Origin: Streptomyces neyagawaensis
GTDB lineage: Bacteria > Actinomycetota > Actinomycetes > Streptomycetales > Streptomycetaceae
DNA length: 64,000 nucleotides
Reading direction: 5' to 3'
Assembly (NCBI RefSeq): GCF_023516595.1
Contig: NZ_JAMGBG010000019.1
Span: 124,001 to 188,000 of the forward strand
Shown in pieces: positions 37,160 to 62,964 of the stretch (positions are counted from its first letter, which is position 1; each line of letters begins with the position of its first letter). A program made the translations under genes and the position numbers. The notes under the pieces are model-generated. The model was not told the DNA's origin. It saw only the letters and a list, made by a program, of their open reading frames with translations, and made no database searches.

Positions 37160-37423
37160 TCAGGCGGCGGCCTTCACGGAGATGGCCTCGTTGACCAGCT
37201 CCAGGTACTGGCGGGGCGTCTCGGCGTCCGTGACGGCGTCCTCGTCGAGGGTCACGTCGTAGTCGCGCTCGATGCGGCCCGTGGTCTGCAGGACGGCCAG
37301 CGAGTCGTAGCCGAGGACCTCGAACGGGACGTCCAGCACATCGCCGTCGAGGTTCACCGCCTCGGCCTCACCGGCGCACTCGCGCAGCAGGTCGGTCAGC
37401 TCGGTGATGGTGAGTGCGGGCAT
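37160..37423 (-). CDS. Type II PKS acyl carrier protein
   Basis: The 87-residue ACP has the phosphopantetheine attachment Ser41 in 'LGYDSLAVLQ'. It tethers the growing polyketide for the KS-alpha/KS-beta pair encoded immediately upstream, in the usual KS-alpha, KS-beta, ACP order. ATG 37423 follows GAGAGG; the frame reads 16 codons further upstream without a ribosome binding site. The phosphopantetheinyl transferase is not in this window. Confidence 0.96.
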   Translation of the reverse strand: MPALTITELTDLLRECAGEAEAVNLDGDVLDVPFEVLGYDSLAVLQTTGRIERDYDVTLDEDAVTDAETPRQYLELVNEAISVKAAA

Positions 37424-37498: not shown

Positions 37499-38761
37499 TC
37501 AGCCGGCGGCGCGGACCACCATCGCCGCGTTGAAGCCGCCCCGGCCGCGCGCCAGCACCAGCGCGGTGCGCAGGGCGGCGGGGCGGGCCTCGCCGGTGAC
37601 GAGGTCCACGGGGCAGTCGTCGGCGGGCTCGGACACGTTGACGGTCGGCGGGATCACCTGGTCCCGCAGCGCCAGCAGCGCCGCCGCCAGGTCCAGCGAG
37701 GCACCGCCCGCCGCCAGCCGTCCCGTCATGGTCTTCGGGGCGGTGACCGGCACACCCCGCGCGCCGAACAGCGCGGCGAGCGCATCCGCCTCGGCCCGGT
37801 CGGCGTCCCGGCGGCCCGCCGCGTCCGCGAACACCACGTCCACGTCGGCGGCGGCCAGCCCCGCGTCGGCCAGGGCCAGTTCGGCGGCCGCGTCCAGCCG
37901 CGGGGCGCCCTTGCCGCGTGGCGGGTCGAAGGTCGCCGCGTATCCGGCGACCGTGCCGTACCCGTGGACGCCGCGCGCGCGGGCCGCGGCCGCGTCCTCC
38001 AGGACCAGCAACGCGCCGCCCTCACCGGCGACATGGCCGCACGCGTCGGCGGAGAACGGCAGATACGCGCGGGCCGCGTCCTCGACGGTGCTCAGCTCGC
38101 CGCCGGCCAGGTGCGCCGCCCAGCCCCACGGGCACAGCGAGGAGTCCACGCCGCCGGTGAGCAGCACCGGAACGCCCTTGCGCAGCTGCCTGCGGGCCTG
38201 CGCGACGGCGTCGAGGCCGCCGGCCTGCTCGGTGACCAGCACCCCGCTGGGTCCGCGCAGCCCGTGCCGGATGGAGATCTGGCCGGTGTTGACGGCGTAG
38301 AACCAGGCGAACGACTGGTAGGCGCTGACGTGGTGGCCGCCCTTGCTCCACAGGGCCTGGAGCTCCCGCTGGCCGAACTCGAAGCCGCCCGCCGAGGCGG
38401 CGGTGACGACCCCCGCGGAGAAGTCGGGCAGCTTGGAGGCGTCGATACCGGCGTCGGAGAGGGCCTCCGCGGCGGCGGCGAGTGCCAGCCGCGTCATGTG
38501 GTCGGTCTGCGGGAGCAGCCGGCTGGAGACGTGGGCGGCCGGATCGAAGCCGGGCACCTCACCGGCGAGCTTCGCCGGGTACTGGTCGGCGTCGAAGCGG
38601 GTGACGGGCCGGATGCCGCTCTCGCCGCGCAGGGTCGCGGCCCACCAGGCCTCGGTGCCCAGGCCGTTGGGCGCGGTCACACCGAGGCCGGTGACCAGGG
38701 GCGTGCCCGGGGAGGGGCCGTCCGTGGCGGCGGCGGAGCGGTCGAGGGTCTGGGTGGTCAT
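37499..38761 (-). CDS. Ketosynthase beta / chain length factor
   Basis: The 420-residue ketosynthase-like protein has the active Cys replaced by Gln179 in '[12 protein letters not shown]', the hallmark of chain-length factors. It dimerises with KS-alpha, generates the starter by malonyl-ACP decarboxylation and sets chain length. With the other benzoisochromanequinone-type genes an octaketide is expected, but chain length cannot be read directly. Start and KS-alpha stop overlap (ATGA). Homologue of ActI-ORF2. Confidence 0.96.
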
Positions 38762-40044
38762 GCTGCCTCTCCCGTGCGCGGGCGGGTCAGGATCATCGCG
38801 CTCTGGAAACCGCCGAAGCCGCTGCCCACGCTGAGCACCGTGTCGGTGCGCTGTTCGCGGGCGGTCAGCGGGGTGTAGTCCAGGTCGCAGGCGGGGTCGG
38901 GGGTGTGCAGGTTGGCGGTGGGCGGCACGGTGTTGTGCTCGATCGCCAGCGCGCTGGCGGCGACCTCCAGGGAGCCGATGGCGCCCAGGGAGTGCCCGAC
39001 CATCGACTTGATGGAGCTGACCGGCACCTCGTAGGCGTGGCTGCCGAGGCTGCGCTTGAACGCCGCCGTCTCGTGGCGGTCGTTCTGCTTGGTGCCGGAG
39101 CCGTGCGCGTTGATGTAGTCGACGGCCGTGGGGTCGAGGCGGGCCTCGTCGAGGGCCACCCGGATCGCCTCGGCCATCTCGGTGCCGTCCTTCGTCAGGC
39201 CGGTCATGTGGTACGCGTTGCAGCGGGTGGCGAAGCCCGCGATCTCGGCGTAGACGTGCGCGCCGCGTCGGCGGGCGGCCTCGAACTCCTCCAGGATCAG
39301 CACCGCCGACCCCTCGCCGAGGACGAAGCCGTTGCGGGAGGCGTCGAACGGGCGGGAGGCCGTCTCGGGTTCGTCGTTGCGGGGGGAGGTGGCCTTGATG
39401 GCGTCGAAGCAGGCCACCGTGATCGGGGAGATCGGCGCCTCCGTGGCACCGGCGACCATCACGTCGGCGCTGCCCTCGCGGATCAGCTCGACGGCGTGCC
39501 CGATGGAGTCCAGGCCCGAGGTGCAGCCGGTGGAGACCATGGAGACCGGGCCCTGCGCGCCGGTCCGCCAGGCGACCTCGGCCGCCATGGAGCTGGGCAC
39601 GAAGTAGTCGAACAGGTGCGGTACGGCGAGGGTGTGGTCCACCTGCCAGGTGGAGCCGCCCCGGCTGACGGTGTTGTACTCGCGGTCCAGGCCCATCGTG
39701 CAGCCGACGGCGCTGCCCAGCGTCACCCCTGTGCGCAGCGGGTCCAGGCCCTCGGGGGAGAGGCCGCTGTCGCGCAGGGCCTCGTCGGCGCTGACGAGGG
39801 CGAACTGCGCGGCCCGGTCCAGGCGTTCGGCCTCCTCGGGGGTGAAGCCGTGCAGCAGCGGGTCGAAGTCGGCCTCGGCGGCGATCCGGGACCGGAACGA
39901 CGAGGCGTCGAACAGGGTGATGCCGCGGGTCGCGGTCCGTCCGGCGGTCAGCAGCGACCAGAACTCCTTGGTGCCCACGCCGCCCGGGGCGACCACCCCG
40001 ATACCGGTGATGACGACACGTCGGTTCACTTGTCGTCGGTTCAT
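38758..40044 (-). CDS. Ketosynthase alpha
   Basis: The 428-residue beta-ketoacyl synthase has active Cys174 in '[10 protein letters not shown]', His in '[13 protein letters not shown]' and His in '[12 protein letters not shown]'. It catalyses the iterative Claisen condensations of the type II PKS with the KS-beta partner (ActI-ORF1 equivalent). The N-terminus reads [11 protein letters not shown], with a near-duplicate start (GTG 40029); ATG 40044 is preferred because it overlaps the thioesterase stop (ATGA) and GAAGGA precedes it. It is in one operon with thioesterase, RmlB and aminotransferase genes upstream. Confidence 0.97.
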
Positions 40045-43154: not shown

Positions 43155-43940
43155 ATGTCGGAACAGGAGCGACGGGTCGCCGTCGTCACGGGTGCGACCA
43201 GCGGTATCGGCCTCGCGGTGACCCGGCTGCTGGCGCAGCAGGGCCACCGGGTGTTCCTCTGCGCGCGCGGCGAGGACGCCGTGCGCGACACGGTCAAGGA
43301 ACTCGGTGAGGAGGGCCTGGAGGTGGACGGCGTCGCCTGCGACGTGCGCTCCGCCGACGACGTCAAGGCGTTCGTGCGGGCCGCGGTGGACCGCTTCGGC
43401 ACCGTCGACGTGCTCGTGAACAACGCCGGCCGCAACGGGGGCGGGGTGACCGCCGACCTCACCGACGAGCTGTGGGACGACGTCATCGACACCAACCTCA
43501 ACAGTGTCTTCCGGATGACCCGCGAGGTCCTCACCACCGGCGGCATGCGCCACAAGGACCGCGGCCGGATCATCAACATCGCCTCCACCGCCGGCAAGCA
43601 GGGCGTGGTGCTCGGCGCCCCCTACTCGGCGTCCAAGCACGGCGTCGTCGGCTTCACCAAGGCCCTCGGCAACGAGCTCGCCCCGACCGGCATCACCGTC
43701 AACGCCGTGTGCCCCGGCTATGTCGAGACGCCCATGGCGCAGCGCGTGCGGCAGGGCTACGCCGACGCGTACGACACCACCGAGGACAAGATCCTGGAGA
43801 AGTTCCAGGCCAAGATCCCGCTCGGCCGCTACTCCACCCCCGAGGAGGTCGCCGGCCTCGTCGGCTACCTGGCCTCCGACACGGCCGCCTCCATCACCTC
43901 GCAGGCCCTGAACGTCTGCGGCGGCCTCGGCAACTTCTGA
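43155..43940 (+). CDS. ActIII-type polyketide C9 ketoreductase
   Basis: The 261-residue SDR is nearly colinear with ActIII: cofactor motif 'TGATSGIG', catalytic Ser144, Tyr157 and Lys161, and the same C-terminal 'QALNVCGGLGNF'. It reduces the C9 carbonyl of the nascent polyketide. ActIII has Pro-Gly-Gly at 94-96; here position 94 is Asn (AGRNGGG), a region linked to binding mode and stereochemistry. CAGGAGAG precedes the ATG. It is the first gene of the plus-strand operon and is followed by the aromatase. Confidence 0.96.
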   Translation: MSEQERRVAVVTGATSGIGLAVTRLLAQQGHRVFLCARGEDAVRDTVKELGEEGLEVDGVACDVRSADDVKAFVRAAVDRFGTVDVLVNNAGRNGGGVTADLTDELWDDVIDTNLNSVFRMTREVLTTGGMRHKDRGRIINIASTAGKQGVVLGAPYSASKHGVVGFTKALGNELAPTGITVNAVCPGYVETPMAQRVRQGYADAYDTTEDKILEKFQAKIPLGRYSTPEEVAGLVGYLASDTAASITSQALNVCGGLGNF

Positions 43941-43966: not shown

Positions 43967-44917
43967 ATGACGACCCGTGAGGTCGAGCACGAGATCACCG
44001 TCGCCGCCCCGGCCGCCGAGCTGTACCGGCTGATCGCCGAGGTGGAGAACTGGCCCCGGATCTTCCCGCCGTCCGTCTACGTCGACCACGTCGAGAAGGG
44101 CGAGCGCGAGGAGCGCATCCGGATCTGGGCCACCGCCAACGGCGAGCCGAAGAACTGGACGTCGCGCCGCGTCCTGCACCCCGAGGAGCTGCGCATCGAG
44201 TTCCGCCAGGAGGTCCCCGCCCCGCCGGTGGCCGCGATGGGCGGCACCTGGATCATCGAACCGCTCGGCGACGCCGAGTCCCGCGTGCGGCTCCTGCACG
44301 ACTACTCCGCGATCGACGACGACCCCGAGCGGCTCGCCTGGATCGACGCGGCCGTGGACCGCAACAGCCGCGCCGAGCTGGCCTCCCTGAAGACCAACGC
44401 GGAACTCGCCGTGCGGGCCGTCGGGCTCACCCTCTCCTTCGAGGACAGCGTCCGCATCGAAGGCTCCGCCAAGGACGTGTACGACTTCATCAACGAGGCC
44501 GACCGCTGGCGCGAGCGCCTCCCGCACGTCGCCGAGGTCTCCCTGCGCGAGGACACCCCGGGCCTGCAAGTGCTGCGCATGGACACCCTCACCAAGGACG
44601 GCTCCCGGCACACCACCGAGTCGATCCGCGTCTGCTTCCCCCACCACCGCATCGCCTACAAGCAGACCACCCTGCCCGCGCTGATGACCCTGCACACCGG
44701 CTACTGGCAGCTCGACGAGGACGAGGACGGCGTCACCACCGCCACCTCCCAGCACACCGTGGTCCTCAACGCCGACAACATCACGAAGATCCTGGGGCCC
44801 GACGCGGGGGTGCCCGAGGCCCGCGAGTTCATCCGCGGCGCCCTCGGCTCCAACAGCCGCGCCACGCTGGGCCACGCCAAGGAGTACGCCGAGAAGCGCA
44901 GGGCGGCCGCGCGATGA
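43967..44917 (+). CDS. Di-domain aromatase/cyclase (ActVII-like)
   Basis: The 316-residue protein has two SRPBCC (START-like) domains: the first about 1-150 ('HEITVAAPAAELYRLIAEVENWPRIFPP'), the second about 155-310 ('LSFEDSVRIEGSAKDVYDFINEADRWRERLPHV'). It catalyses first-ring cyclisation and aromatisation after C9 reduction. GGGAGAAGG precedes the ATG. Its stop overlaps the next start by four bases. A second di-domain protein of the same type is at 51707-52708. Confidence 0.95.
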   Translation: MTTREVEHEITVAAPAAELYRLIAEVENWPRIFPPSVYVDHVEKGEREERIRIWATANGEPKNWTSRRVLHPEELRIEFRQEVPAPPVAAMGGTWIIEPLGDAESRVRLLHDYSAIDDDPERLAWIDAAVDRNSRAELASLKTNAELAVRAVGLTLSFEDSVRIEGSAKDVYDFINEADRWRERLPHVAEVSLREDTPGLQVLRMDTLTKDGSRHTTESIRVCFPHHRIAYKQTTLPALMTLHTGYWQLDEDEDGVTTATSQHTVVLNADNITKILGPDAGVPEAREFIRGALGSNSRATLGHAKEYAEKRRAAAR

Positions 44918-45774
44918 GCGGGCACACCCCGCGCACCTGGCTGGTCACCGGCGCCTCCCGGGGCCTCGGCCGGGCCATCACCGAGGTCGCGCTGGAGGCG
45001 GGCGACACCGTCGTCGCCACCGCCCGCAAGCCCGAGACCCTCGACGACCTGGTCGAACGGTACGGCGACCGTGTCGTCGCGCTCGCCCTCGACGTCACCG
45101 ACCGCGCCGCCGTCCTCGCCACCGTCGCCGAGGCCGCCGAGCGGGCGGGCCGGATCGACGTCCTGCTCAACAACGCGGGCTACGGCCTCGCCGGGGGCGT
45201 CGAGGAGGTCGACGAACGGCAGGTCCGGGACCAGTTCGACGTCAACTTCTTCGGCGCGCTGTGGGTCACCCAGGCCGTGTTGCCGGTGATGCGCCGCCAG
45301 GGGGCGGGCCACATCCTCCAGATGTCCAGCATCGCCGGCCTCACGACCTACCCGAACCTCGGCATGTACTGCGCCGGCAAGTGGGCCCTGGAGGCCATGA
45401 GCGAGACCCTGGCGCTGGAGGTCGCCGGCTTCGGCATCCGCGTCACGATCGTCGAGCCCGGCGAGTTCCGCACCGAGTGGAGCGCCGGCAGCATGGTCCG
45501 CGCCACGCCCATGCCCGAGTACGACGAGGTGCTCGCGGGGCGGCGGCACGGACTGTCCGGGGCGTACGCCCACCTCCAGCCCGGCGACCCACGCAAGGCG
45601 GGCGAGGCCCTGCTGAAGCTGCTCGACGCGGAGCGGCCGCCGCTCAGGATCCTGCTCGGCAACAGCGCCGCCGACCTCGCCCCCCGCGTGCTGCGCGACC
45701 GCCTCGCGGAGTGGGAGGAGTGGGACGCGCTGGCCCGCACGACGGATCACGACGGAACGGACACCGGACCGTGA
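44914..45774 (+). CDS. Short-chain dehydrogenase/reductase
   Basis: The 286-residue classical SDR has 'WLVTGASRGLGRAI', 'NNAG', Ser in 'QMSSIAGL' and catalytic Tyr152/Lys156 (YCAGK). It resembles oxidoreductases with the 'VTIVEPGEFRTEW' loop that follow KR/ARO genes in other clusters. It is a likely ketone reduction or alcohol oxidation step in tailoring; the substrate is unknown. It is coupled to the aromatase (ATGA) and to the next gene (GTGA). Confidence 0.88.
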   Translation: MSGHTPRTWLVTGASRGLGRAITEVALEAGDTVVATARKPETLDDLVERYGDRVVALALDVTDRAAVLATVAEAAERAGRIDVLLNNAGYGLAGGVEEVDERQVRDQFDVNFFGALWVTQAVLPVMRRQGAGHILQMSSIAGLTTYPNLGMYCAGKWALEAMSETLALEVAGFGIRVTIVEPGEFRTEWSAGSMVRATPMPEYDEVLAGRRHGLSGAYAHLQPGDPRKAGEALLKLLDAERPPLRILLGNSAADLAPRVLRDRLAEWEEWDALARTTDHDGTDTGP

Positions 45775-46400
45775 GCCTGACCGCGCGCCCGGCGACCTGG
45801 CCCGAGGGGCCGGGGCGGTTCGTCCGTGGGGTTGCCCTGCGTGCCCGGCGGGTCGCCTGGCGTGCGGTCCTGTCCCTGCGGCCGCTCGCGCTGGGCGTCT
45901 GCGCCTTCGCGCAGGCAGCCGCCGTCGCCTGGATCGCGTACGAGCGGACGCGTCCGCCCGCCCCGCAGCCCGGCGACCACGCCTGGTGGCACGGCGGCGG
46001 CCCGTCCGCCGCCGGGCACACCGCGCACGCCGGCGGGGACGGCAGCGGGCCCGTGCTGTACCTCGCGCTGGCCACGGCCGCCCTGTACCTGCTGCTGCCC
46101 CTGTTCGCCCTCGCCGCACACACCGTGCGCCACCTGGGCGGCGGGGCGTGGACCTTCGCCCTCGTGGGCGGCGTGGTGAGCGCGGCCGTCGCCGTGCCCG
46201 TGACCGCCCTCGCGATCGCCCTGACCCCCGGCGCGCCCGCCGAGTCGTGGACCGCGGCGGGCGACCACGCCCTGACCGCGCTGCGCATCTGCGCCCCGGC
46301 CGGTCTGCTGCTCGCCGTCGCCGTCGGGGTGCCGTCGAGCGCACGGCACCGCGCGGACCGTCCGCCGAGACTCGTGGAGAAGAGAACCCGATCATGCTGA
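45771..46400 (+). CDS. Four-helix membrane protein of unknown function
   Basis: The 209-residue protein has about four transmembrane helices (near 40-60, 98-120, 130-155 and 180-200) and an extracytoplasmic His/Gly-rich loop between the first two ('GDHAWWHGGGPSAAGHTAHAGGDG'). The His-rich loop could bind copper. It overlaps both the SDR gene and the following multicopper oxidase gene, so it may help load copper into, or dock, that oxidase. This is inferred from context only; I recognise no family. Confidence 0.75.
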   Translation: MSLTARPATWPEGPGRFVRGVALRARRVAWRAVLSLRPLALGVCAFAQAAAVAWIAYERTRPPAPQPGDHAWWHGGGPSAAGHTAHAGGDGSGPVLYLALATAALYLLLPLFALAAHTVRHLGGGAWTFALVGGVVSAAVAVPVTALAIALTPGAPAESWTAAGDHALTALRICAPAGLLLAVAVGVPSSARHRADRPPRLVEKRTRSC

Positions 46401-47833
46401 ACCGACGCCATCTGCTCAAGGCCGCCGTCGTGGGCGGCGCCGCCGCGCTGTTCCCCTGGGAGGGGCTGAGCGGCAGCGGATCCGCCGCCGCGGCCGGCGA
46501 CCTCGCGGAGACGGTGCCCTTCGCGCACGCCCTGCCGCTGCCGAAGACCCTCACCCCCGTCACCCGCGGCGCCACCACCGACATCTACGAGATGCGGATG
46601 CGGGAGGCCGACGTCGAGATCGTCAAAGGGCTGACCTCCCGCGTCCGCACCTTCGACGGCACGTTCCCCGGCCCCACCATCAAGGCGTGCCACGGGCGCG
46701 CGGTGGAGGTGCGCCAGTACAACGACCTGACCGTGAACGCCGCCGTCCACCTGCATGGCGGCGAGGTCCTCTCCGAGCACGACGGCCTCCCCATGGACGT
46801 CATCGCACCCGGCGGCAACCGGACCTACCACTACCCGAACAAGCAGCGGGCGGCCTCCCTCTGGTACCACGACCACGCACACCACCTGGAGGCGGAGAAC
46901 GTCTACAAGGGCCTGCACGGGCTCTACCTGATCAGCGACGCCGAGGAGAGGAAGCTGCCGCTGCCCCGCGGCGCCTACGACGTGCCGCTGGTCATCCGGG
47001 ACGCCCGCGTGGAGACCGACGGCACCCTGCGCTACACCCGCCCCTCCGACTGCCCGCACATGCTGGTCAACGGCAAGGAGCGGCCGTACTTCAAGGTCGC
47101 GGCCCGCAAGTACCGGCTGCGCCTCTACAACGCCTGCGCCAACCGCTACATCAGGCTGCGGCTCGCCGACGGCACGCCCTTCACCCAGATCGCCTCCGAC
47201 GGCGGTCTGCTGGAACGCCCCGTGCAACGCGACGAGTTGCTGATGCTGGGCGGCGAACGCGTCGAGGTCGTCGTGGACTTCTCCCGCTACGCCGTGGGCC
47301 AGTCGGTGGTGCTGGAGAACACCGGCGCCCTGCCCACCGAGCGCCCCGAGGTGCTCCGCTTCGACATCGACCGCAGGAGCACCGACAACAGTGAGGTGCC
47401 GGCCCGACTCTCCACACTGCCGCCGGTGCCGCGGGGCACGGTGGAACGGGACTTCGAGCTGCGCACGTTCCCCGCGATGACCATCAACGGCGTCAGCTAC
47501 GACCCGGACCGGGTCGACGTGGCGACCACCGTCGGCAGCAGCGAGATCTGGACGATCCGCAACGTGGAGGCACCGCTCCCGGCGCCCCCGGACTTCCACC
47601 TGTACCACAGCTTCCACACGCACCTGACGTACTTCCGGGTCCTCGAACGCAACGGCCAACCGGCCGGCGTCCGGGACTCGGGACTCAAGGACACCGTGTG
47701 CCTCGGCCCCGGCGAGACCGTGAAGATCGCCATGACCTGGGGCCCCTACACCGGCCAGTACCTCTACCACTGCCACCAGCTCGGCCACTCCTCCGGCGGC
47801 CAGATGGGACGCATCGACATCAACCCGGCCTGA
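46394..47833 (+). CDS. Tat-exported multicopper oxidase (bilirubin oxidase/CotA-like)
   Basis: The 479-residue protein has a twin-arginine-type leader ('NRRHLLKAAVVGGAAALF') and three cupredoxin domains. Copper motifs: 'HLHGG' (119), 'WYHDHAHH' (157), 'HSFHTHLTYF' (about 405) and 'YHCHQLGHSSGGQM' (about 458), giving the trinuclear centre and a type 1 site with Met. It would oxidise phenols with O2 outside the membrane, for example quinone formation or phenolic coupling of the exported polyketide. This is unusual in benzoisochromanequinone clusters. It is the last gene of the ketoreductase operon. Confidence 0.92.
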   Translation: MLNRRHLLKAAVVGGAAALFPWEGLSGSGSAAAAGDLAETVPFAHALPLPKTLTPVTRGATTDIYEMRMREADVEIVKGLTSRVRTFDGTFPGPTIKACHGRAVEVRQYNDLTVNAAVHLHGGEVLSEHDGLPMDVIAPGGNRTYHYPNKQRAASLWYHDHAHHLEAENVYKGLHGLYLISDAEERKLPLPRGAYDVPLVIRDARVETDGTLRYTRPSDCPHMLVNGKERPYFKVAARKYRLRLYNACANRYIRLRLADGTPFTQIASDGGLLERPVQRDELLMLGGERVEVVVDFSRYAVGQSVVLENTGALPTERPEVLRFDIDRRSTDNSEVPARLSTLPPVPRGTVERDFELRTFPAMTINGVSYDPDRVDVATTVGSSEIWTIRNVEAPLPAPPDFHLYHSFHTHLTYFRVLERNGQPAGVRDSGLKDTVCLGPGETVKIAMTWGPYTGQYLYHCHQLGHSSGGQMGRIDINPA

Positions 47834-48008: not shown

Positions 48009-49463
48009 ATGCAGACTTCGCCCCCCGAACGGTTGGACCGCAAGCTCCTCGTCCTCGCGGGCACCCTCCTCATCGGTGCCATCGCGTCCCTCCTGGACTC
48101 GACCATCGTCAGTGTCGCCCTGAACGACATCGGTGAGGAACTGGACGCCTCCGAGACCGCGCTGTCCTGGGTCAACACGTCCTATCTGCTGACCCTGGCC
48201 CTGGTCACCCCGCTCGTCGGCTGGGCCGTGGACCGCTTCGGCGACAAGCGGATGTGGATGTTCGCCCTCGTGGTGTTCCTGGCCGGCTCGGTGCTGTGCG
48301 GACTCGCCTGGTCCGTGGAGAGCCTGATCGCCTTCCGTGTGGTCAAGGGCATCGGCGGCGGCATGGTGCTGCCGATGGTGCAGGCGATCCTCGCGGAGGC
48401 GGCCGGGCCGAAGCGCTTCGGCCGGGTGATGAGCCTGGTCGGCATCCCCGGACAACTCGCCCCCATCATGGGCCCGGTGGCCGGCGGGCTGATCATCGAC
48501 GCGGCGGGCTGGCGGTGGATCTTCTTCGTCAACGTGCCTGTCATCCTGCTCGCCCTCGCCCTCGCCTGGAAGGTGCTGCCCTCCTCCGGCGAGCGGCGCG
48601 GCACCCGGGTCGACCGCGTCGGCATGCTGCTCCTGCCGCCCGGCATGGTCGCCCTCGTCTACGGCTTCTCCCGGGTCCGGGACGTGTCCCAGCTGACCGA
48701 CCCGTTCACCCTCGGTGTGCTGCTGGCCGGCCTCGCCCTGGTCGCCGGGTTCTGTGTGCACTCCGCGCGGTCCACGGACCCCCTGCTCGACGTACGGCTG
48801 TTCCGCTCCCGGGTGTTCTCCACCTCCTCGGCGCTGATCCTGCTGCACGGCGTGGCCATCTACGGCACCCTCTTCGTGCTGCCGCTGTACTACACGCGGG
48901 TGCTCGGCCACGACAGTTCCACCACGGGCTGGCTGCTCGCCCCGCAGGGCCTCGGCATGCTGATCGGCATCTCGCTGGCCGGCGCGCTCACCGACCGGTA
49001 CGACCCGCGCACCCTCATCCTCGGCAGCACCGTGGTCGCCGCCCTCGGCACCGTCGCCTTCACCCAGCTCGCCGAGCACCCCGGCGACCTGCTGCTCGGC
49101 CTGTCCCTGTGCGTGCGGGGCCTCGGCCTGGGTGTCATCGGCGTGGCCGTCATCACCACGGCCTACCGTGACGTGCCCGCCGACCGCATCGCGCGGGGCA
49201 CCGTACTGATCGCGGTCGGGCAGCGGGTCGGCGCGTCCTTCGGCACGGCCGTCGTCGCCCTGCTGCTGTCCGTCGGCCTCACCGCCGCGCCCGGTGAGGC
49301 GGGGGCGGGGGACGCGGCGGCGTACGGCGACACGTTCTGGTGGGTGCTCGGCCTGGTCGCGCTGATGCTGCTGCCGGCGCTCCTCATGCCGCGCAAGCCG
49401 AGGGAGCCGGAGACCGGCGTGGAGCAGGAGGAGGGACAGCCGGCGGAGTCGGGACACCACTGA
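48009..49463 (+). CDS. MFS drug exporter (DHA2 type, 14 helices)
   Basis: The 484-residue transporter of the EmrB/QacA group has an N-terminal 'LDSTIVSVALNDIGEEL' motif D1-like segment, 'GWAVDRFGDKRMWM' motif A, and 'GPVAGGLIIDAAGWRWIFFVNVP' motif C, characteristic of proton antiport exporters. It probably exports and gives self-resistance to the cluster product. It has its own upstream region of 175 bases. It converges on the thymidylyltransferase gene. Confidence 0.92.
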   Translation: MQTSPPERLDRKLLVLAGTLLIGAIASLLDSTIVSVALNDIGEELDASETALSWVNTSYLLTLALVTPLVGWAVDRFGDKRMWMFALVVFLAGSVLCGLAWSVESLIAFRVVKGIGGGMVLPMVQAILAEAAGPKRFGRVMSLVGIPGQLAPIMGPVAGGLIIDAAGWRWIFFVNVPVILLALALAWKVLPSSGERRGTRVDRVGMLLLPPGMVALVYGFSRVRDVSQLTDPFTLGVLLAGLALVAGFCVHSARSTDPLLDVRLFRSRVFSTSSALILLHGVAIYGTLFVLPLYYTRVLGHDSSTTGWLLAPQGLGMLIGISLAGALTDRYDPRTLILGSTVVAALGTVAFTQLAEHPGDLLLGLSLCVRGLGLGVIGVAVITTAYRDVPADRIARGTVLIAVGQRVGASFGTAVVALLLSVGLTAAPGEAGAGDAAAYGDTFWWVLGLVALMLLPALLMPRKPREPETGVEQEEGQPAESGHH

Positions 49464-50792: not shown

Positions 50793-51710
50793 TCAGTCGA
50801 CGGTCAGCACGACCTTGCCCCGGCCGTGCCCGCTCTCCACGTCCCGGTGCGCCTCAGCGGCGTGGGCCAGCGGGTGCGTGGCGCGCAGATGGATCGTCAC
50901 CTTGCCCTGCGTGTACAGCTCCACCAGTCCCGCGAGCCGCTGCGCCGACCGGGCACCGGCCACGTCCCGCAGGCCCAGGCGCTCGGCCTCCTCCGTGGCG
51001 ATCATCGTGACCACCCGGTCGCGGTTCTTCGCCACCGCCACCGACGCCCGCAGCGCCTCGGGGCCGGCCGCGTCGACGGCCGCGTCCACCCCGTCGGGCG
51101 CGATGGCCCGCACCCGCTCCTCCAGCCCCTCGCCGTAGGTGACCGGCACGGCGCCCAGGGCCCGCAGATGGTCGTGGTTGCGTTCGCTGGCCGTGCCGAT
51201 GACCGTGCCCGCGCCCCAGGCCAGGGCCAGCTGCACGGCGAACGTGCCGAAGCCGCCGGCGGCCGCGTTGATGAGCACCGTGTCACCCGGCTCCACGCCC
51301 ACGGTCGACAGTGCCATGTGCGCGCCCTGCCCGTTGCCCGGGAAACCGGCGGCGATCTCCCACGGCATGTCCGCCGGCTTGCGGACGATCTGGTCGGCGG
51401 GCACCGTCAGGTACTCCGCGTAGGCGCCGAGCACGCTGTAGCCGAGCACCTCGTCGCCGGGCGCGAACGCCGTCACGCCCTCGCCCGCCTGGTCGACGAC
51501 CCCGGCGAACTCGTTGCCCAGCACCATCGGGAACTCGCGCTTGATGAACGGCGGGGTCCACCCGCCGCGCACCCGCACGTCGAACGGCAGCACCCCGGCC
51601 GCCCTCACCCGTACCCGGACCTCACCCGGCCCGGCCTGCGGTTCCTTCAGCGTCGTCTCTTCCAGCACCTCGGGGGGCCCGAACGAGGACAACGTCGCCG
51701 CTCGCATCAT
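50793..51710 (-). CDS. ActVI-ORF2-like NADPH enoyl reductase (MDR family)
   Basis: The 305-residue zinc-independent medium-chain reductase has 'LGNEFAGVVDQAGEGV', 'GDTVLINAAAGGFGTFAVQLA' (NADPH fold) and a C-terminal 'HPLAHAAEAHRDVESGHGRGKVVLTVD'. In actinorhodin biosynthesis ActVI-ORF2 reduces the enoyl double bond in the pyran ring. The homologue here supports a dihydropyran product. Start and upstream stop overlap (ATG at 51710 or 51707). It is the last gene of the glycosyltransferase operon. Confidence 0.88.
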   Translation of the reverse strand: MMRAATLSSFGPPEVLEETTLKEPQAGPGEVRVRVRAAGVLPFDVRVRGGWTPPFIKREFPMVLGNEFAGVVDQAGEGVTAFAPGDEVLGYSVLGAYAEYLTVPADQIVRKPADMPWEIAAGFPGNGQGAHMALSTVGVEPGDTVLINAAAGGFGTFAVQLALAWGAGTVIGTASERNHDHLRALGAVPVTYGEGLEERVRAIAPDGVDAAVDAAGPEALRASVAVAKNRDRVVTMIATEEAERLGLRDVAGARSAQRLAGLVELYTQGKVTIHLRATHPLAHAAEAHRDVESGHGRGKVVLTVD

Positions 51711-56478: not shown

Positions 56479-57600
56479 ATGCCGAGCCAGTCGACAACCA
56501 GCCGAACCGGTCTGCCGGAGCGCGCCGGTGACCTCGCCGCGACCGCGGCCCGGTACGCCGCCGACGCGGACACCGACCGGGAACTGGCACCGGCGGTCAC
56601 GGACGGCATCGTCCGTGCCGGCTTCGCACGGCACTTCGTGCCCGCCCGCTTCGGCGGCGCCGAGGGCGGCGCCCGGGAACTGCTGGACGCGGTCGCCGCG
56701 CTGGCGGAGGGCTGCACCTCGGCCGCCTGGTGTGCGTCGGTCACCGCGGGCGCCGCCCGCATGGGCGCCTACCTGCCCGAGCGGGGCCAGCGGGAACTGT
56801 GGGAGCGCGGCCCCGACACCGTGGTCGTCGGCGCGCTCATGCCGAGGGGCGCGGTCACGGAGGTCGCGGACGGCTGGCGGGTGACCGGCGAATGGGAGTT
56901 CACCAGCGCGGTCGGCTTCTCCGACTGGGCGCTGGTGTGCGCGCTGGTGCCGCAGGACGACCGGCACGTGCCGTGGTTCTTCGCGCTGCCCCGCGCCGAC
57001 TACCAGGTCGTCGACACCTGGTCGGCGATCGGTATGCGCGGCACCGGCAGCCACACCCTCACCGTCGACAACGTCTTCGTGCCCCGGCACCGCGGCTTCA
57101 CCCGGGACACCATGCTCGCCGGGCGCGCCGTCGCCTCCACCGCCCGCTGCCACACCGTTCCGCTGCGGCTGGTCAGCGGCCTGCTGTTCGCCGCCCCCGC
57201 GCTCGGCGCGGCCCGCGGCGCGCTGCGGGTGTGGTCCGAGCACACGGCGATGGACACCGACGAACGCAACCCCGGCCCCCGGATCGCCCTCGCCCGTGCC
57301 GCCGTCACGGTCGACGCGGCCCATCTGCTGCTGGAGCGCGCGGCCCGCGTCGCCGACGCCCCCGCGGCGACCCCCCTGGAGCAGGTGCGCAACCCCGCCG
57401 ACTGCGCGCACGCCGTGGACCAGCTCGTCGACGTCGTCGGGCAGTTGTTCCGCACCGTCGGCAGCACCGGCCAGCTCGCCGCCCACCCCCTCCAGCGGAT
57501 CTGGCGCGACGTGCACTGCCTGGCCAGCCATGTCGCCCTGCGCTTCGACACCGCGGGCGGTGCGTACGGCGCCCGGCTGTTGGAGCCCGCCGCCGGCTGA
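56479..57600 (+). CDS. ActVA-ORF5-like flavin-dependent monooxygenase
   Basis: The 373-residue acyl-CoA-dehydrogenase-fold protein of the two-component (class D) monooxygenase type has 'FVPARFGGAEGGARELLDAVAALAEGCTSAAWCA', 'GWRVTGEWEFTSAVGFSDWAL' and 'WSAIGMRGTGSHTLTVDNVFVP'. It uses reduced flavin from the ActVB-like reductase at 29042-29548 to hydroxylate and oxidise the aromatic ring to the quinone, by analogy with ActVA-ORF5. GAGGAAG precedes the ATG. The same operon continues with a SnoaL paralogue, a luciferase-like and an ActVI-ORF1-like gene. Confidence 0.9.
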   Translation: MPSQSTTSRTGLPERAGDLAATAARYAADADTDRELAPAVTDGIVRAGFARHFVPARFGGAEGGARELLDAVAALAEGCTSAAWCASVTAGAARMGAYLPERGQRELWERGPDTVVVGALMPRGAVTEVADGWRVTGEWEFTSAVGFSDWALVCALVPQDDRHVPWFFALPRADYQVVDTWSAIGMRGTGSHTLTVDNVFVPRHRGFTRDTMLAGRAVASTARCHTVPLRLVSGLLFAAPALGAARGALRVWSEHTAMDTDERNPGPRIALARAAVTVDAAHLLLERAARVADAPAATPLEQVRNPADCAHAVDQLVDVVGQLFRTVGSTGQLAAHPLQRIWRDVHCLASHVALRFDTAGGAYGARLLEPAAG

Positions 57601-57660
57601 TCCCGGCGCCGCCCCCGTCCTCGTACCGACCTGTCACACGACCTACGGAAGGCAGCTGGC

Positions 57661-58125
57661 ATGAGCCACCCCACCACCCCGGACCAGGCGACGGCGTCGT
57701 TCGCCCCGGCCGACCTGTACGCGGAGGTCCAGCAGTTCTACGCCCGCCAGATGGGCCTGCTGGACGACGGCAGGCCCGACGACTGGGCCGACACCTTCAC
57801 CACCGACGCGGTGTTCGCCGAGGCCAGCCGGCTGGCCGAGCCGCTGCGCGGCCGCGAGGTGATCCGTGCCTCGTCCCGGGCACGGCAGGAGCGCCTCGAC
57901 GCCGACAAGATCGACTTCCGGCACTGGCTGGGCATGCTCGACGTCCGCCCCCAGGCCGACGGTTCGGTGCGCACCCGCGCGTACGCCCTCGCCATGCGCA
58001 CCCCGCGCGGCGGGCAGCTGGAGATCTTCGCCAGCGTCGTCTGCCACGACCACCTCGTCCGGGTGAACGGCGCCTGGCAGGTGCGGCAGCGCGATCTGAC
58101 CCACGACGGCTCGGCCCGGGACTGA
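57661..58125 (+). CDS. SnoaL-like polyketide cyclase-fold protein
   Basis: The 154-residue NTF2-fold protein, 'LYAEVQQFYARQMGLLDDGRPDDWADTFTTDAVF...DFRHWLGMLDVRPQADGSVRTRAYALAM', is clearly paralogous to the core of the protein at 55206-55979 and lacks its extension. It is similar to ActVI-ORFA/SnoaL-type proteins that bind polyketide intermediates. It is short of known catalytic residues, so a cyclase or chaperone role is inferred from context. It sits ten bases before the next gene. Confidence 0.88.
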   Translation: MSHPTTPDQATASFAPADLYAEVQQFYARQMGLLDDGRPDDWADTFTTDAVFAEASRLAEPLRGREVIRASSRARQERLDADKIDFRHWLGMLDVRPQADGSVRTRAYALAMRTPRGGQLEIFASVVCHDHLVRVNGAWQVRQRDLTHDGSARD

Positions 58126-58135
58126 GGAGCACACG

Positions 58136-59203
58136 ATGAAGTTCGGCATCGTCTTCTTCCCCACCGTCGGCCCCGCCGACAAACCGGCCCCGCAGTACTT
58201 CGACGAGGCGCTGCGCCTGGTGGACCTCGCCGAGGAACTGGGCTTCGACCACGTGAAGATGGTCGAGCACTACTTCTTCGCGTACGGCGGCTACAGCCCC
58301 GACCCGGTGACGTTCCTGGCGGCCGCCGCGGGCCGCACCCGCCGGGTCCGGCTGGGCACCAGCGCCACCATCCCCGCCTTCCAGCACCCGGTGAAGCTGG
58401 CGGGCAAGCTGGCCATGCTCGACGCCATGTCGGGCGGCCGGGTCGACGCCGCGTTCGGACGGGCCTTCCTGCCGGACGAGTTCACGGCGTTCGGCATCCC
58501 CATCGACGAGTCCAAGGACCGCTTCACCGAGGGCGTCGAGGCGATCAAGCGGCTGTGGGCCGAGGAGGACGTGGTCTTCGAGGGCCGCTTCCACCGCTTC
58601 GGCCCGGTCACCCTGCTGCCCCGCCCGGTGCAGGACCCGCACCCGCCGGTGTTCGTCACCACCGCCCGCAGCGCCGAGTCCTGCGCCGAGGCGGGCCGCG
58701 CCGGGCACCACCTCCAGACCGTGCCCAACGTGATGTCCACCGAGGAGCTCCAGAGCCGGCTCGCCGTCTACCGCGAGGAGTGGGCCGCCTCCGGCCGCAC
58801 CCCGGGCACCGAGCAGATCCACTTCAGCTACCCGTGCGTGGTGTCCGAGGACGGCGACACGGCCCGGACGAAGGGCCGTCACGACGACGACCGCAACTCC
58901 GCCGCGATCCGCGCCGCCGTCGCCTCCTGGGAGACCACGCGCAGCTCCGCCTACCCCGGCTACGAGAAGCTCGTCGAGGCCACGAGGACCTCGCACTTCG
59001 AGGGGAAGCTGGCGCAGAACAAGCTCCTCATCGGCGCCCCGGACCAGGTCCGCGCCCAACTGGAGCAGATCGCCGAGTGGTTCGGCGACGACATCACCAT
59101 CAGCCTCGGCGTCCACTCCGGCCATCTGTCCTTCGAGGACGCCGCCACGACCATGCGGTTGATGGCCGAGCACGTCATCCCGAAGCTGTCCGCCGCCCGA
59201 TGA
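58136..59203 (+). CDS. Luciferase-like (LLM) flavin-dependent oxidoreductase
   Basis: The 355-residue TIM barrel of the bacterial luciferase family has 'KFGIVFFPTVGPADKPAPQYFDEALRLVDLAEELGFDHVKMVEHYF', 'RRVRLGTSATIPAFQHPVKLAGKLAMLDAMSGGRVDAAFGRAFLP' and 'EGRFHRFGPVTLLPRPVQDPHPPVFVTTAR'. It needs FMNH2 or F420H2; which is unclear. It is a candidate oxygenase for a later ring oxidation. It overlaps functionally with, but differs from, the two ACAD-fold enzymes in the cluster. Confidence 0.88.
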   Translation: MKFGIVFFPTVGPADKPAPQYFDEALRLVDLAEELGFDHVKMVEHYFFAYGGYSPDPVTFLAAAAGRTRRVRLGTSATIPAFQHPVKLAGKLAMLDAMSGGRVDAAFGRAFLPDEFTAFGIPIDESKDRFTEGVEAIKRLWAEEDVVFEGRFHRFGPVTLLPRPVQDPHPPVFVTTARSAESCAEAGRAGHHLQTVPNVMSTEELQSRLAVYREEWAASGRTPGTEQIHFSYPCVVSEDGDTARTKGRHDDDRNSAAIRAAVASWETTRSSAYPGYEKLVEATRTSHFEGKLAQNKLLIGAPDQVRAQLEQIAEWFGDDITISLGVHSGHLSFEDAATTMRLMAEHVIPKLSAAR

Positions 59204-59240
59204 CCGCCGGCCCGTCGACCCCGAAGCGAGGCACCCACCC

Positions 59241-60191
59241 ATGACCACCCCAGCACCGCCGCGGACGGTCACCGTGATCGGCGCCGGCACCATCGGCCTC
59301 GGCTGGATCGCGCTGTTCCTCGGCCACGGACTGCGCGTCCGCGTCAACAGCCGCAGGCCCGACGCGCCGCGCATCGTCCAGGAGGCCCTAGACCTGTTCG
59401 CCCCGTTCCTCCCCGAGGGGAGCGGGGACCCGGCCGGGTTCGGGGAGCGCCTGGAGTTCGAGCCCGACGTGGAGCGTGCCGTCGCGGACACCGACGTCGT
59501 CGTGGAGAACGCGCCGGAGAACCTGGAACTCAAGCAGGAACTCTTCGCCCGGATCGGCAAGGCGGCCCGGCCCGACGCGCTGATCCTGTCCTCCACCTCC
59601 ACCCTCAACCCCGACGACATGGGCGCGCTCATGGCCGACTCCACCCGGCTCGTCGTCGGCCACCCCTTCAACCCGCCGCACGTCGTCCCGCTCGTGGAGG
59701 TCGTCGCCGGTGAGCGCACCTCACCGGAGGCCGTGCGGGAGGCCGTGGCGTTCTTCGAGTCGGTGAGCCGGGTCCCGGTGGTGCTGCGCAAGCCGGTCCT
59801 CGCGTTCGCGGCGAACCGGCTGCAGTCCGCGCTGCTGCGCGAGTCGATCCACCTGGTGAAGGAGGGCGTGGTCTCCCTGGAGGAGCTGGACCGCGTCGTC
59901 ACGCACTCCATCGGGCTGCGCTGGGCGACCGTGGGTCCCTTCCTCGCCTTCCACCTGGGCGGCGGCACGGGCGGCCTGCGCAAGTGGCTGGGCACGCTCG
60001 GCTCCGGCCTGGAGAAGGGCTGGGAGCTGCTCGGCCGCCCCACCCTGGACGAGGCGACGATCCAGTCCCTCATCGAGCAGGCCGAGGAGGTGTACGGCGG
60101 CTCGTCGTACGAGGAGCTGGTGCGCGAGCGCGACACCCGGCAGACCGCCGTCCTCAGGGCACTGGCGGAGGTCGGCGACCGCCAAGCCTGA
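59241..60191 (+). CDS. ActVI-ORF1-like 3-hydroxyacyl-CoA dehydrogenase (stereospecific ketoreductase)
   Basis: The 316-residue protein has an N-terminal NAD-binding fold 'TVIGAGTIGLGWIALFLGHGLRVRVNSRRPDAPRIVQEAL' and a C-terminal helical dimer domain. It includes 'PHVVPLVEVVAGERTSPEAV' and a His in 'VVGHPFNPPH'. In actinorhodin biosynthesis ActVI-ORF1 reduces the C3 ketone to the S-alcohol that closes the pyran ring. This is the best single marker that the aglycone is a benzoisochromanequinone. It is followed by a terminator. Confidence 0.92.
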   Translation: MTTPAPPRTVTVIGAGTIGLGWIALFLGHGLRVRVNSRRPDAPRIVQEALDLFAPFLPEGSGDPAGFGERLEFEPDVERAVADTDVVVENAPENLELKQELFARIGKAARPDALILSSTSTLNPDDMGALMADSTRLVVGHPFNPPHVVPLVEVVAGERTSPEAVREAVAFFESVSRVPVVLRKPVLAFAANRLQSALLRESIHLVKEGVVSLEELDRVVTHSIGLRWATVGPFLAFHLGGGTGGLRKWLGTLGSGLEKGWELLGRPTLDEATIQSLIEQAEEVYGGSSYEELVRERDTRQTAVLRALAEVGDRQA

Positions 60192-60562: not shown

Positions 60563-61909
60563 GTGTTCCCCACTGTGTTCCGCTTCCGACAGACGTCGGA
60601 GTTCCTCGACTGGTTCGCCGAACGGAACCGCACCCACCGGCACCGGGTGACGCCCGTGCCGCTCGACGCCCTGGACGGCTGGGCGAGCGACCCGGAGACC
60701 GGGAACCTGCGGCACCGCACGGGGAAGTTCTTCACCGTCGAGGGCGTCGAGATCACCACCGGCCGCCGGGAGACCCGGTCCTGGACGCAGCCGATCATCG
60801 TGCAGCCCGAGGCCGGCATCCTCGGCATCCTCGTCAAGGACTTCGGCGGCGTGCGGCACTTCCTGCTCCAGGCCAAGATGGAGCCGGGCAACATCAACGT
60901 CCTGCAGATGTCCCCGACCGTGCAGGCCACCCGGTCCAACTTCACCCGCGTCCACCAGGGCGGCGCCGTCCCGTACTTGGAGTACTTCCTGGCGCCGCCC
61001 CGGCGGCGGGTCCTGTTCGACGCGCTCCAGTCCGAGCAGGGCTCCTGGTTCCACAGCAAGCGCAACCGGAACATGATCGTGGAGCTGCCGCCCGACGAGG
61101 ACGTGCCGCCGCGCGAGGGCTTCTGCTGGCTGACCCTGGAGCAGATCGGGGACCTGCTCGCCCTGGACAACATCGTCAACATGGACACCCGCACCGTCCT
61201 GTCGGGCCTGCCGGCGCCCTGGCCCGACGACCTCGGCGGGCCCGGCGCCGAGGACCGCGGCCGGCACTCGATGACCGAGCTGCTCAGCTGGTTCACCGAC
61301 GTCAAGGCCCCGCAGGACCTGCACCGGCGTCGTATCCCGCTCGCCGAGGTGAAGGGCTGGACCCACACCGGGGACCGTTTCGTCCACGAGGAGGGCCGCT
61401 ACTTCTCGGTGATCGGCGTGGACGTCGAGGCGGACGGCCGCGAGGTGGCCCGCTGGTCGCAGCCGATGCTGGCCCCCGCCGGACGCGGTGTGATCGCCTT
61501 CCTCACCCGGTGGATCGACGGCCGCCGCCATGTGCTGGTGAACGCCCGCACGGAGGCCGGCTCCCGCGACATCGCCGAGATGGCGCCGAGCGTGCAGTGC
61601 TGCCCGGCCAACTACGAGGGCCGCCCCGAGGACGAGCGGCCCCGCTTCCTCGACACGGTCCTGTCGGCGGACCCGTCGCGGATCCTGTTCGACGTGGTGC
61701 ACTCGGAGGAGGGCGGCCGCTTCCACCACGCCGAGAACCGCTACCTCGCCGTCGAGGCCGACGACGGCGTGCCGCTCGACGCGGGCGAGGACCACATCTG
61801 GATGACGCCCGGACAGCTCGGCAGCCTGCTGAGGTACTCCAACCACGTCAACGTCGAGGCCCGCAACCTGCTGACCTGCCTGCGCTTCCTGCGGCAGCGG
61901 GACCGATGA
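60563..61909 (+). CDS. NDP-hexose 2,3-dehydratase
   Basis: The 448-residue protein has two repeated halves typical of the family ('[27 protein letters not shown]...[19 protein letters not shown]' and '[27 protein letters not shown]...[19 protein letters not shown]'). It removes the C2 hydroxyl of dTDP-4-keto-6-deoxyglucose, starting 2-deoxygenation (SpnO/TylCVI/Gra-ORF27 equivalents). The GTG at 60563 follows GGGAGG; a GTG 15 codons upstream has no ribosome binding site. It overlaps the next gene by four bases. Confidence 0.93.
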
Positions 61910-62964
61910 CCGGGCGCACCGTACGGCTCGGCCTGCTGGGCGCCGCCGACATCGCCGTCCGCCGGGTCCTGCCCGCCGTGTCCCGCGCGCCCGGCATCAC
62001 CCTGACCGCCGTGGCGAGCCGCGACCCCGATCGCGCGAGGACCTTGGCCGCCGCGTACGGGGCCGACGCGCTGCCCGACTACCGGGCGGTGCTCGCCGAC
62101 CCCCGCGTGGACGCGGTGTATGTGCCGGTGCCTGCGGCGCTGCACGCCGACTGGGTGCGCGCCGCCCTGGAGGCGGGCAAGCACGTCCTCGCCGAGAAGC
62201 CGCTGACCACCGACCCCCGCACGACCGCCGAACTGGTCGCCCTGGCCCGGAAGTCGGGGCTGGTGCTGCGGGAGAACTACCTGTTCGTCCACCATCCGCA
62301 GCACCGGGCGGTGCTCGACCTGATCGCACGGGGCGCCGTCGGCGAGGTCCGCGCGGTCTCGGCCGCCTTCACCATCCCCCCGCGGCCCCCGGCCGACATC
62401 CGCTACCGCCCCGACCTCGGCGGCGGCGCCCTCCTCGACGTCGGCGTGTACCCGCTGCGGGCCGCCCAGTTGCTGCTCGGCCCGGAGCTGCGGGTCGCGG
62501 GCGCGGTGTTGAGCACCGATCCCGCGCGGGGCGTGGACGTGGCGGGCGCGGCCCTGCTGTCCCGGGACGCGGACGGCGCCACGGCCCACCTCACCTTCGG
62601 CATGGAGCACCGGTACACGTCCCGCTACGAAGTGCTCGGCAGCACCGGCAGGCTCCGCCTCGACCACGCCTTCACCCCACCCCCCGACCACCGCCCCGTC
62701 CTGCTGCTGGAGGGCCCGGACGGCGTCCGGCGCCACGAGCTGGAGCCGTACGACCAGTGCCTCGGCGGCGTCGAGGCGTTCGCCCACGCGGTCGCCGGCG
62801 TCGAGGCGACCGGCGGCCCGGGGGGCGGCACGACCGACGACCCGAGCGACGACCCGACCGGCGACGAGGCCGGTACGTCCGGCGCGATCAGTACCCGACA
62901 GGCGGAGCTCACCGCCGACATCCAACGACAGGCCCAGTACGCCGTGGGAGGCGATGCTCGATGA
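61906..62964 (+). CDS. NDP-hexose 3-ketoreductase
   Basis: The 352-residue Gfo/Idh/MocA oxidoreductase has the N-terminal NADPH fold '[37 protein letters not shown]' and the catalytic 'EKPLTTD' lysine motif. It completes the 2-deoxygenation by reducing the 3-keto group (SpnN/Gra-ORF26 type). A Gly/Asp/Thr-rich insert near the C-terminus ('[20 protein letters not shown]') is longer than in typical relatives. It is coupled at both ends (ATGA overlaps). Confidence 0.92.

Follow-up and report, generated by a model that had tools for sequence, protein, structure and literature searches.

A candidate naphthohydroquinone oxidase with an axial glutamine at its type 1 copper site in an aur2-type polyketide operon of Streptomyces neyagawaensis

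Introduction

The window analysed in this study is a stretch of 64,000 nucleotides from Streptomyces neyagawaensis (assembly GCF_023516595.1, contig NZ_JAMGBG010000019.1, positions 124,001 to 188,000 of the forward strand); the genome assembly comprises 270 contigs totalling 10.06 Mb. In this window, a ketoreductase operon of a polyketide cluster ends with a gene for a multicopper oxidase (MCO) that carries an export-type leader. This arrangement raises the question of what an oxidase outside the membrane could do for a polyketide. A previous sequence-only reading had suggested phenol oxidation or oxidative dimerisation of an exported product. The interest of the oxidase, as described below, lies in a natural axial Gln at its type 1 copper site, which is tied to naphthalenoid pathways. 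No paper on this oxidase was found in openly licensed full texts; supplements and most subscription papers are outside that scope, so prior publication is possible.

The oxidase gene and its product

The MCO gene begins with ATG at 46394 and stops at 47831-47833 on the + strand, and the open reading frame (ORF) encodes a product of 479 amino acids (aa). The sequence-only reading had placed it at 46394-47833 within the ketoreductase operon, correctly: it is the last of five genes. The features of the oxidase are as follows.

46394..47833, + strand: multicopper oxidase with a Tat-type (twin-arginine translocation) leader, three domains, 479 aa, axial residue Gln470 (Pfam, alignments, AlphaFold2 (AF2) model)
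47768..47806, + strand: residues 459-471, HCHQLGHSSGGQM, with C460 and H465 (type 1) and Q470 in the axial place (alignments)
47585..47623, + strand: residues 398-410, F401-H402-L-Y-H405-S-F-H408-T-H410, the FH motif ahead of the ligand motif (alignment)

All three cupredoxin domains score above the Pfam cut-offs (Cu-oxidase_3, 95.8 bits; Cu-oxidase_2, 64.7; Cu-oxidase, 21.6), the middle one narrowly (21.6 versus 21). The twin arginine of the leader, which had been noticed before, stands within MLNRRHLLK at the N-terminus, where the Pfam TAT_signal score (21.4 bits) is just under the cut-off (22.7). When the oxidase was aligned with those of 24 of the 80 related loci described in the next section, the copper-ligand places H119, H121, H159, H161, H405, H408, H410, H459, C460, H461 and H465 were invariant in 25/25 sequences. 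The AF2 model has a mean pLDDT (predicted local distance difference test) of 89.5, with residues 1-33 below 50. Its best fold matches are a Sulfurimonas oxidase (Z 51.5) and then SufI (2uxt, Z 51.2); with CotA (7y8c), Z is 49.0 and the root-mean-square deviation is 1.4 over 423 residues at 39% identity. Judged by sequence, the product is a three-domain laccase-like MCO, and it is probably exported and biosynthetic.

Three named MCO types were tried and rejected. The closest NCBIfam model by score, CueO (NF008205), gave 244.6 bits against an equivalog cut-off of 525; PhsA o-aminophenol oxidase (NF045554) gave 184.6 against 950; and FtsP/SufI (NF008135) gave 173.9 against 581, despite the 2uxt fold being among the closest.

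The ratio of nonsynonymous to synonymous substitution rates (dN/dS) of the oxidase was 0.12-0.20 versus three close orthologues and 0.31-0.41 versus four more distant ones. For the membrane protein encoded by the preceding gene, the values versus six orthologues were 0.24-0.69. Because these values show constraint, although it is weaker for the membrane protein, the two reading frames are not a matter of chance.

The type 1 axial residue and the FH segment

The earlier statement that all copper motifs are visible holds for the ten His and the Cys; however, the axial Met of the type 1 site is replaced by Gln470. In the phmmer alignment with CotA, Gln470 falls on the first Met of the CotA Met pair; we take the CotA residue aligned with the axial position to be Met502. 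In the alignment with 6iqx, Gln470 stands opposite a Gln. The axial residue of bilirubin oxidase is Met467, and 6iqy, which has the same sequence as 6iqx, is its M467Q mutant (PMC6337666).

To describe how widely this Gln occurs, we use 80 loci, which are the best 80 of 134 found via two peptide patterns from seven orthologues and are thus an uneven sample. Several of them extend less than 10 kb on one side, and their genes were named by BLAST against the window genes, whose own names come from Pfam or are provisional. The axial residue is Gln in 20 loci (L055-L072, L074, L075) and Met in 60. Among the loci of the genus (L014-L036, n=23; some identical to genes of named loci), it is Met in all. 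Together, the window and L055-L075 form a clade of 22 members. The His of an FHxxH motif ahead of the type 1 His is present in 22/22 clade members and in 0/59 others. Moreover, the loop at this motif has 13-15 residues in the 22 members, whereas among the 57 measurable oxidases outside the clade it has 5-8 residues in 54, 10 in one and 13 in two.

A tree was made from 79 rows, namely the window and 78 of the 80 loci (L078 and L128 were dropped as gene calls shorter than 400 aa), with the axial column kept in. The 21 Gln rows need a single Met/Gln change on this tree, as compared with a mean of 18.7 when shuffled (0/500 shuffles as low), and the single change also holds in 92% of 200 bootstrap trees. 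The Gln rows form a group with support 94/73, nested in the 22-row clade (support 100/99), the outermost member of which, L073, has an axial Met. Because the root is the midpoint, the direction from Met to Gln is only inferred.

Two engineered enzymes suggest what such a Gln may do. In Thermus laccase, M460Q brings the potential of the type 1 copper down from 357 to 258 mV and leaves about a third of the efficiency (PMC6487685); in bilirubin oxidase, M467Q shifts it from 470 to 270 mV and leaves ~0.3% of the activity (PMC6337666). By analogy, Gln470 as a putative copper ligand may lower the type 1 potential of the window's oxidase. A low-potential site is therefore predicted, which would fit hydroquinones better than simple phenols, and natural conservation of the Gln suggests an easily oxidised substrate. 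In a full-text search of the openly licensed literature, no naturally Gln-type MCO was found in print, which does not prove absence.

The polyketide setting of the clade

The clade is linked with naphthalenoid polyketide loci: 20/22 members are found within or close to polyketide loci of type II or type III. Fourteen of them are in or linked to clusters of the type II polyketide synthase (PKS) kind. The alpha subunit gene of the ketosynthase (KS-alpha) is within the stretch read for the window, L055-L062 and L073. For L063 and L064, it is on the same contig ~23 kb off, and in the L064 genome genes for the chain-length factor (CLF), acyl carrier protein (ACP), ketoreductase (KR) and cyclases follow it. 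L074 and L075 have tailoring and sugar genes of the same kinds around them, with KS-alpha elsewhere in each genome (for L074, location on the same contig is presumed from its number). RppA is a tetrahydroxynaphthalene synthase. In the remaining six (L066, L067, L069-L072), the oxidase gene follows an RppA-like type III PKS gene at a distance of 0.2-1.6 kb, and a P450 gene precedes the latter (Pfam was applied to the L067 pair only). Thus, the products known or expected around the clade are naphthalenoid, namely pyranonaphthoquinones and, for the RppA-like genes, tetrahydroxynaphthalene.

In the other 59 loci, at the chosen score limits, KS-alpha was found in two (L077, L111), KR with aromatase (ARO) in two (L083, L085), ARO alone in three (L087, L091, L114) and RppA in none, several stretches being short; L083 also has CLF and ACP pieces. 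Met-type oxidases thus occur near type II PKS genes too, but less often than those of the clade.

The RppA-type loci, from Kitasatospora and Streptomyces (L067:5852-11470, L066, L069-L072), combine the P450 and RppA-like genes with a DUF1259 protein (3/6) and the Gln-type MCO, perhaps as a naphthoquinone or melanin pathway.

The operon and the membrane partner

The operon is tight: its five genes overlap by 4, 4 and 7 bases, with one gap of 26. The four genes ahead of the oxidase gene are listed below.

43155..43940, + strand: ketoreductase (FabG-like), first operon gene (Pfam, NCBIfam)
43967..44917, + strand: aromatase/cyclase (ARO/CYC) with two Polyketide_cyc2 stretches (Pfam)
44914..45774, + strand: SDR (short-chain dehydrogenase/reductase) oxidoreductase of the NF006114 / PRK08263 type (Pfam, NCBIfam)
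45771..46400, + strand: four-helix membrane protein, 209 aa, with a His/Gly loop, oxidase partner (hydropathy, AF2 model)

The description of the preceding gene as an overlapping one for a small membrane protein with a His/Gly-rich loop proved accurate. It overlaps the start of the oxidase gene by 7 bases, hydropathy and the AF2 model (mean pLDDT 74.8) give four helices, and the loop has 4 His and 8 Gly within a chosen 35-residue stretch. The loop is variable, with one His kept in at least 90% of 16 sequences. At E <= 0.001, no Pfam or NCBIfam match was found for the window copy, no Pfam match for the L126 copy and no fold match for the model in Foldseek.

A search for the pair in other clusters, which had been recommended, showed that it recurs. 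By profile, the membrane protein was found in 11/22 clade members (window, L055-L058, L060-L062, L073-L075) and in 8/59 loci outside the clade; it should be noted that this profile was made from 18 sequences including 15 of its 18 locus matches, so that L057, L102 and L127 are new to it. Because of this distribution, the membrane protein looks older than the Gln switch and may have been lost later in the RppA group, L059 and L063/L064. In other actinobacterial genera, members of this unnamed family of four-helix proteins with a His-containing loop are encoded directly before MCOs (L120, L123, L124, L126, L134). The sought type II PKS genes were not found near these five; neighbouring genes were read for L124 and L126 alone.

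Relatives in the genus and the auricin plasmid

Among 392 genomes of the genus (own included), with four oxidase candidates scored per genome, an oxidase match at E <= 1e-60 was obtained in at least 94. Only seven of these oxidases are at least 68% identical to that of the window, and the next ones are at most 53%. The five-gene order near a KS pair is kept in G139, G228, G056 and G019. The clusters of S. torulosus NRRL B-3889 and S. ossamyceticus NRRL B-3822 match that of the window at 94-100% identity for each gene across the roughly 18.7 kb compared. Six genomes have an SDR with at least 77% identity, and the oxidase is present in 5/6. Among the 81 genomes around G056, examined for the forosaminyl-griseusin biosynthetic gene cluster (BGC) 1.31 of CA-256286, SDR matches at E <= 1e-120 were in G056 and G019 alone.

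One relative (L060) is plasmid pSA3239 of the auricin producer Streptomyces lavendulae CCM 3239, in which the same five-gene operon is present. Its MCO (SLAV_RS40525, 225066-226520) is 74.9% identical to that of the window, and the operon and a KS pair at 230-233 kb are divergently oriented. The other KS pair annotated within 146-241 kb is at 171-174 kb, in an angucycline-like core. Auricin requires aur2AB, aur1DE being inactive (PMC10409956); aur2 adjoins aur1, and the published probe spans aur2BCD (PMC10409956). By our own matching to that paper, the pair at 230-233 kb is aur2AB and the pair at 171-174 kb is aur1DE. The corresponding window genes are as follows.

38758..39996, - strand: KS-alpha of type II PKS, aur2A-like (Pfam, BLAST)
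37499..38761, - strand: KS-beta / chain-length factor, aur2B-like (Pfam, BLAST)
37160..37423, - strand: acyl carrier protein (Pfam)

The identities between window and plasmid are 89% for KS-alpha, 82% for CLF, 85% for KR, 73% for ARO/CYC and 81% for SDR. Judged by the orthologous KS pair and the KR-ARO/CYC-SDR operon, the window's cluster is aur2-type. Auricin, a spiroketal pyranonaphthoquinone, bears one forosamine and has a peri-hydroxy (juglone-type) quinone together with a gamma-lactone; griseusins share the juglone-type quinone and gamma-lactone (PMC6784081). The biosynthesis of griseusin/auricin-type antibiotics has been called still unknown (PMC10409956). The words copper, oxidase and laccase are missing from the main texts of PMC10409956, PMC6784081 and PMC8588249.

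Two further observations concern these relatives. Between the aur1 and aur2 regions, pSA3239 has an NmrA-family gene (189846-190688; L136:43847-44689); the sequence-only reading had named an NmrA-type protein for actinorhodin dimerisation. In addition, the oxidase-less cluster of G362 (L169-L170; G362:C2:272001-310000), which is weighed in the Discussion, is near a 1282-aa protein that appears by eye to be nonribosomal peptide synthetase (NRPS)-like, such as indigoidine synthetase; the auricin cluster is reported to be interrupted by indigoidine genes (PMC10409956).

The cluster around the operon

The operon is set in a type II PKS cluster with KS-alpha, chain-length factor, ACP, a thioesterase and two SRPBCC cyclases. 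The cluster also contains an acyl-CoA-dehydrogenase-like monooxygenase, SnoaL-like and luciferase-like genes, a 3-hydroxyacyl-CoA dehydrogenase-like reductase, deoxysugar genes and an EryCIII-like glycosyltransferase. The genes downstream of the oxidase gene include the following.

48009..49463, + strand: major facilitator superfamily (MFS) exporter, 175 bases downstream of the oxidase (Pfam)
50793..51710, - strand: PIG3-type quinone oxidoreductase-like gene (149.4 bits, below the model cut-off of 296.8)
56479..60191, + strand: acyl-CoA-dehydrogenase-like flavin monooxygenase, SnoaL-like, luciferase-like monooxygenase and 3-hydroxyacyl-CoA dehydrogenase-like reductase (Pfam)
60563..63998, + strand: deoxysugar genes, namely NDP-hexose 2,3-dehydratase, 3-ketoreductase-like gene and DegT-family gene, the last cut by the window end (Pfam)

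The middle gene of the last row is presumably 3-ketoreductase-like, by its place. Just past the window are a SARP-type (Streptomyces antibiotic regulatory protein) regulator, a carboxylase subunit, a metallo-beta-lactamase (MBL)-fold protein and a phosphopantetheinyl transferase. We take the MBL protein, the 3-hydroxyacyl-CoA dehydrogenase-like reductase and the monooxygenase to resemble ActIV, ActVI-ORF1 and ActVA-ORF5 of the actinorhodin pathway. No copper-resistance family was found by Pfam in 35 window ORFs (~26.6-64 kb), a few of which span or miss gene starts.

Two further KS-alpha-like genes, 74% and 67% identical to that of the window, are in the same genome (G000:C194:7900-9117 and G000:C216:157459-158676); therefore, like the auricin producer, this strain may have a second type II PKS. 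The window also contains a four-gene cassette (29628-35181, - strand) for an AsnB-like amidotransferase, a PrpF-like protein, an acyl-CoA dehydrogenase and an amidohydrolase. The same order is repeated in Actinosynnema sp. ALI-1.44 (L126:11456-16783), directly after a membrane-protein/MCO pair and beside HpaB and chorismate-utilising genes. This AsnB/PrpF cassette was not seen in 40 kb each of G228, G056 and G019, nor in the pSA3239 annotation of 146-241 kb.

Discussion

We propose that the oxidase is Tat-exported, is dedicated to the pathway product and turns a naphthohydroquinone of the aur2-type pathway into the quinone outside the membrane. This proposal is tentative, and we place it a little short of an even chance. 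The cytoplasmic enzymes and the MFS exporter would deliver the aglycone or glycoside as the hydroquinone; alternatively, lactone closure would convert the quinone into the hydroquinone. When such a quinone lactonises, the product is a hydroquinone, which is subsequently re-oxidised, as stated for an adduct (PMC8588249). Electrons would enter the oxidase through a type 1 copper of low potential, the one with the axial Gln, and pass to the trinuclear centre, where O2 would be reduced to water, and the quinone would be left outside the membrane, presumably late in the pathway. The small membrane protein may dock the oxidase or supply copper via its His loop. More broadly, the MCO branch in which the axial Met is swapped for a stellacyanin-like Gln, together with its pocket segment, might comprise dedicated low-potential naphthohydroquinone oxidases, which complete polyketides of both type II (pyranonaphthoquinone) and type III (tetrahydroxynaphthalene) origin outside the membrane, with a membrane partner in part of the branch. 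This wider proposal is possible, with the balance against it.

Several points weigh against these proposals. According to the same griseusin paper, a hydroquinone of this kind 'would be readily oxidized' (PMC8588249); because such hydroquinones oxidise readily in air, an enzyme may be unnecessary. In the aur2-type cluster of G362, which has KS-alpha (89%), CLF, KR, ARO/CYC and SDR (79%), neither membrane protein nor oxidase was found in the 38 kb read; an opposite-strand gene follows the SDR gene, and the two oxidases found elsewhere in that genome (four of eight candidates scored) are 50% and 47% identical. For two clade members (L065, L068), the sought polyketide genes were not found within ~10 kb, with RppA-like genes elsewhere in both genomes. 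Because the partner was not found in 11/22 clade members, it is no general requirement of the oxidase, and because Met-type oxidases occur in the type II PKS setting too (at least L077, L083, L085 and L111 of the 59), Gln is not required there. Furthermore, Gln may also mean low turnover, because M467Q keeps only ~0.3% of activity and M460Q about a third of efficiency.

The oxidase might instead act by coupling: the phenoxyl radicals it makes would lead to dimers or polymers of the exported polyketide or, at the RppA loci, of a hydroxynaphthalene (melanin). Phenol coupling is known for laccases, fungal dihydroxynaphthalene (DHN)-melanin laccases act on hydroxynaphthalenes (PMC4395095), and six clade members stand beside RppA-like and P450 genes. 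However, auricin, the closest known product, whose producer has an MCO 75% identical, is a single spiroketal pyranonaphthoquinone with forosamine, and the main text of PMC6784081 mentions neither dimer nor monomer; moreover, the potential inferred from the engineered mutants would disfavour oxidation of simple phenols. We consider coupling unlikely, and a quinone-forming role is more likely than a dimerising one. What survives of the earlier proposal is a probably exported MCO in a polyketide operon with a recurrent membrane partner, and not the oxidative dimerisation. Going beyond mere re-oxidation of a hydroquinone, the enzyme could also drive closure of the spiroketal or gamma-lactone via a quinone methide. 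Such rings are present in products of the family (PMC6784081), and the FH segment beside the type 1 His may shape a substrate-specific pocket. Nevertheless, this enzyme type is also encoded beside RppA-like genes, and the naphthalene expected from those contains no ring of this sort; in addition, the oxidase is absent from the cluster of G362, and an extracytoplasmic site would be odd ahead of glycosylation, so that ring formation is a shade more doubtful still.

A protective role, in which the cluster has captured a CueO-like copper- or redox-stress oxidase that guards the producer against copper or the redox cycling of its own quinone, would be consistent with CueO as the closest NCBIfam model, with the threat of redox cycling to quinone producers and with the absence of the oxidase from the G362 cluster. 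Its CueO score is, however, far below the cut-off (244.6 versus 525), the 35 ORFs scanned with Pfam contain no copper-resistance family, and the position of the oxidase is fixed within a biosynthetic operon; we regard this role as improbable. Even less credible, and indeed very improbable, is a membrane-bound quinol oxidase, which with its partner would take electrons from membrane menaquinol, also a naphthoquinol, the cluster location being incidental. That a four-helix membrane protein is repeatedly the partner of the oxidase, including in 8/59 loci outside the clade, points in that direction, but the partner is missing in half of the clade.

If the oxidation of naphthohydroquinones is the function, griseusin/auricin-type antibiotics would have a testable extracytoplasmic last oxidation, and producers could hold a toxic quinone in its reduced form until after export. 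The clade would also be a natural experiment on how an MCO works with an axial Gln, which cuts potential and activity in two engineered enzymes, and a single oxidase family would link the naphthalenoid pathways of type II with those of type III.

Comparison with known systems

The oxidase resembles CotA of the Bacillus spore coat and Myrothecium bilirubin oxidase in its three-domain fold (CotA 7y8c), its aligned His and Cys ligands and an AENxYxG-type stretch. In contrast to them, it has an axial Gln for Met, the FH motif, a Tat-type leader, a polyketide operon and a membrane partner. The aur2 region of S. lavendulae CCM 3239 shares the five-gene operon and its divergent orientation relative to the KS pair; unlike the window, the pSA3239 annotation of 146-241 kb (gene table incomplete) has a second KS pair and has neither an ACP beside KS-beta nor the AsnB/PrpF cassette. 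By role, the oxidase can be compared with the fungal DHN-melanin laccases PbrB and Abr2, in which a copper oxidase acts last in a naphthalene polyketide pathway (PMC4395095). These enzymes are eukaryotic and polymerise to melanin.

The final step had also been called unusual. This needs qualification: MCOs have already been noted in the bacterial natural-product clusters of megalochelin, rifamycin and kanglemycin, with function unestablished (PMC10127220). The likeness considered is that of cluster setting. Those clusters, unlike the window, are of the NRPS or type I PKS kind.

The closest parallel at the copper site itself is with bilirubin oxidase M467Q and Thermus laccase M460Q, whose stellacyanin-like sites have Gln at the aligned axial position. 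Whereas these are laboratory mutants, the Gln of the window's oxidase is natural and conserved in its clade.

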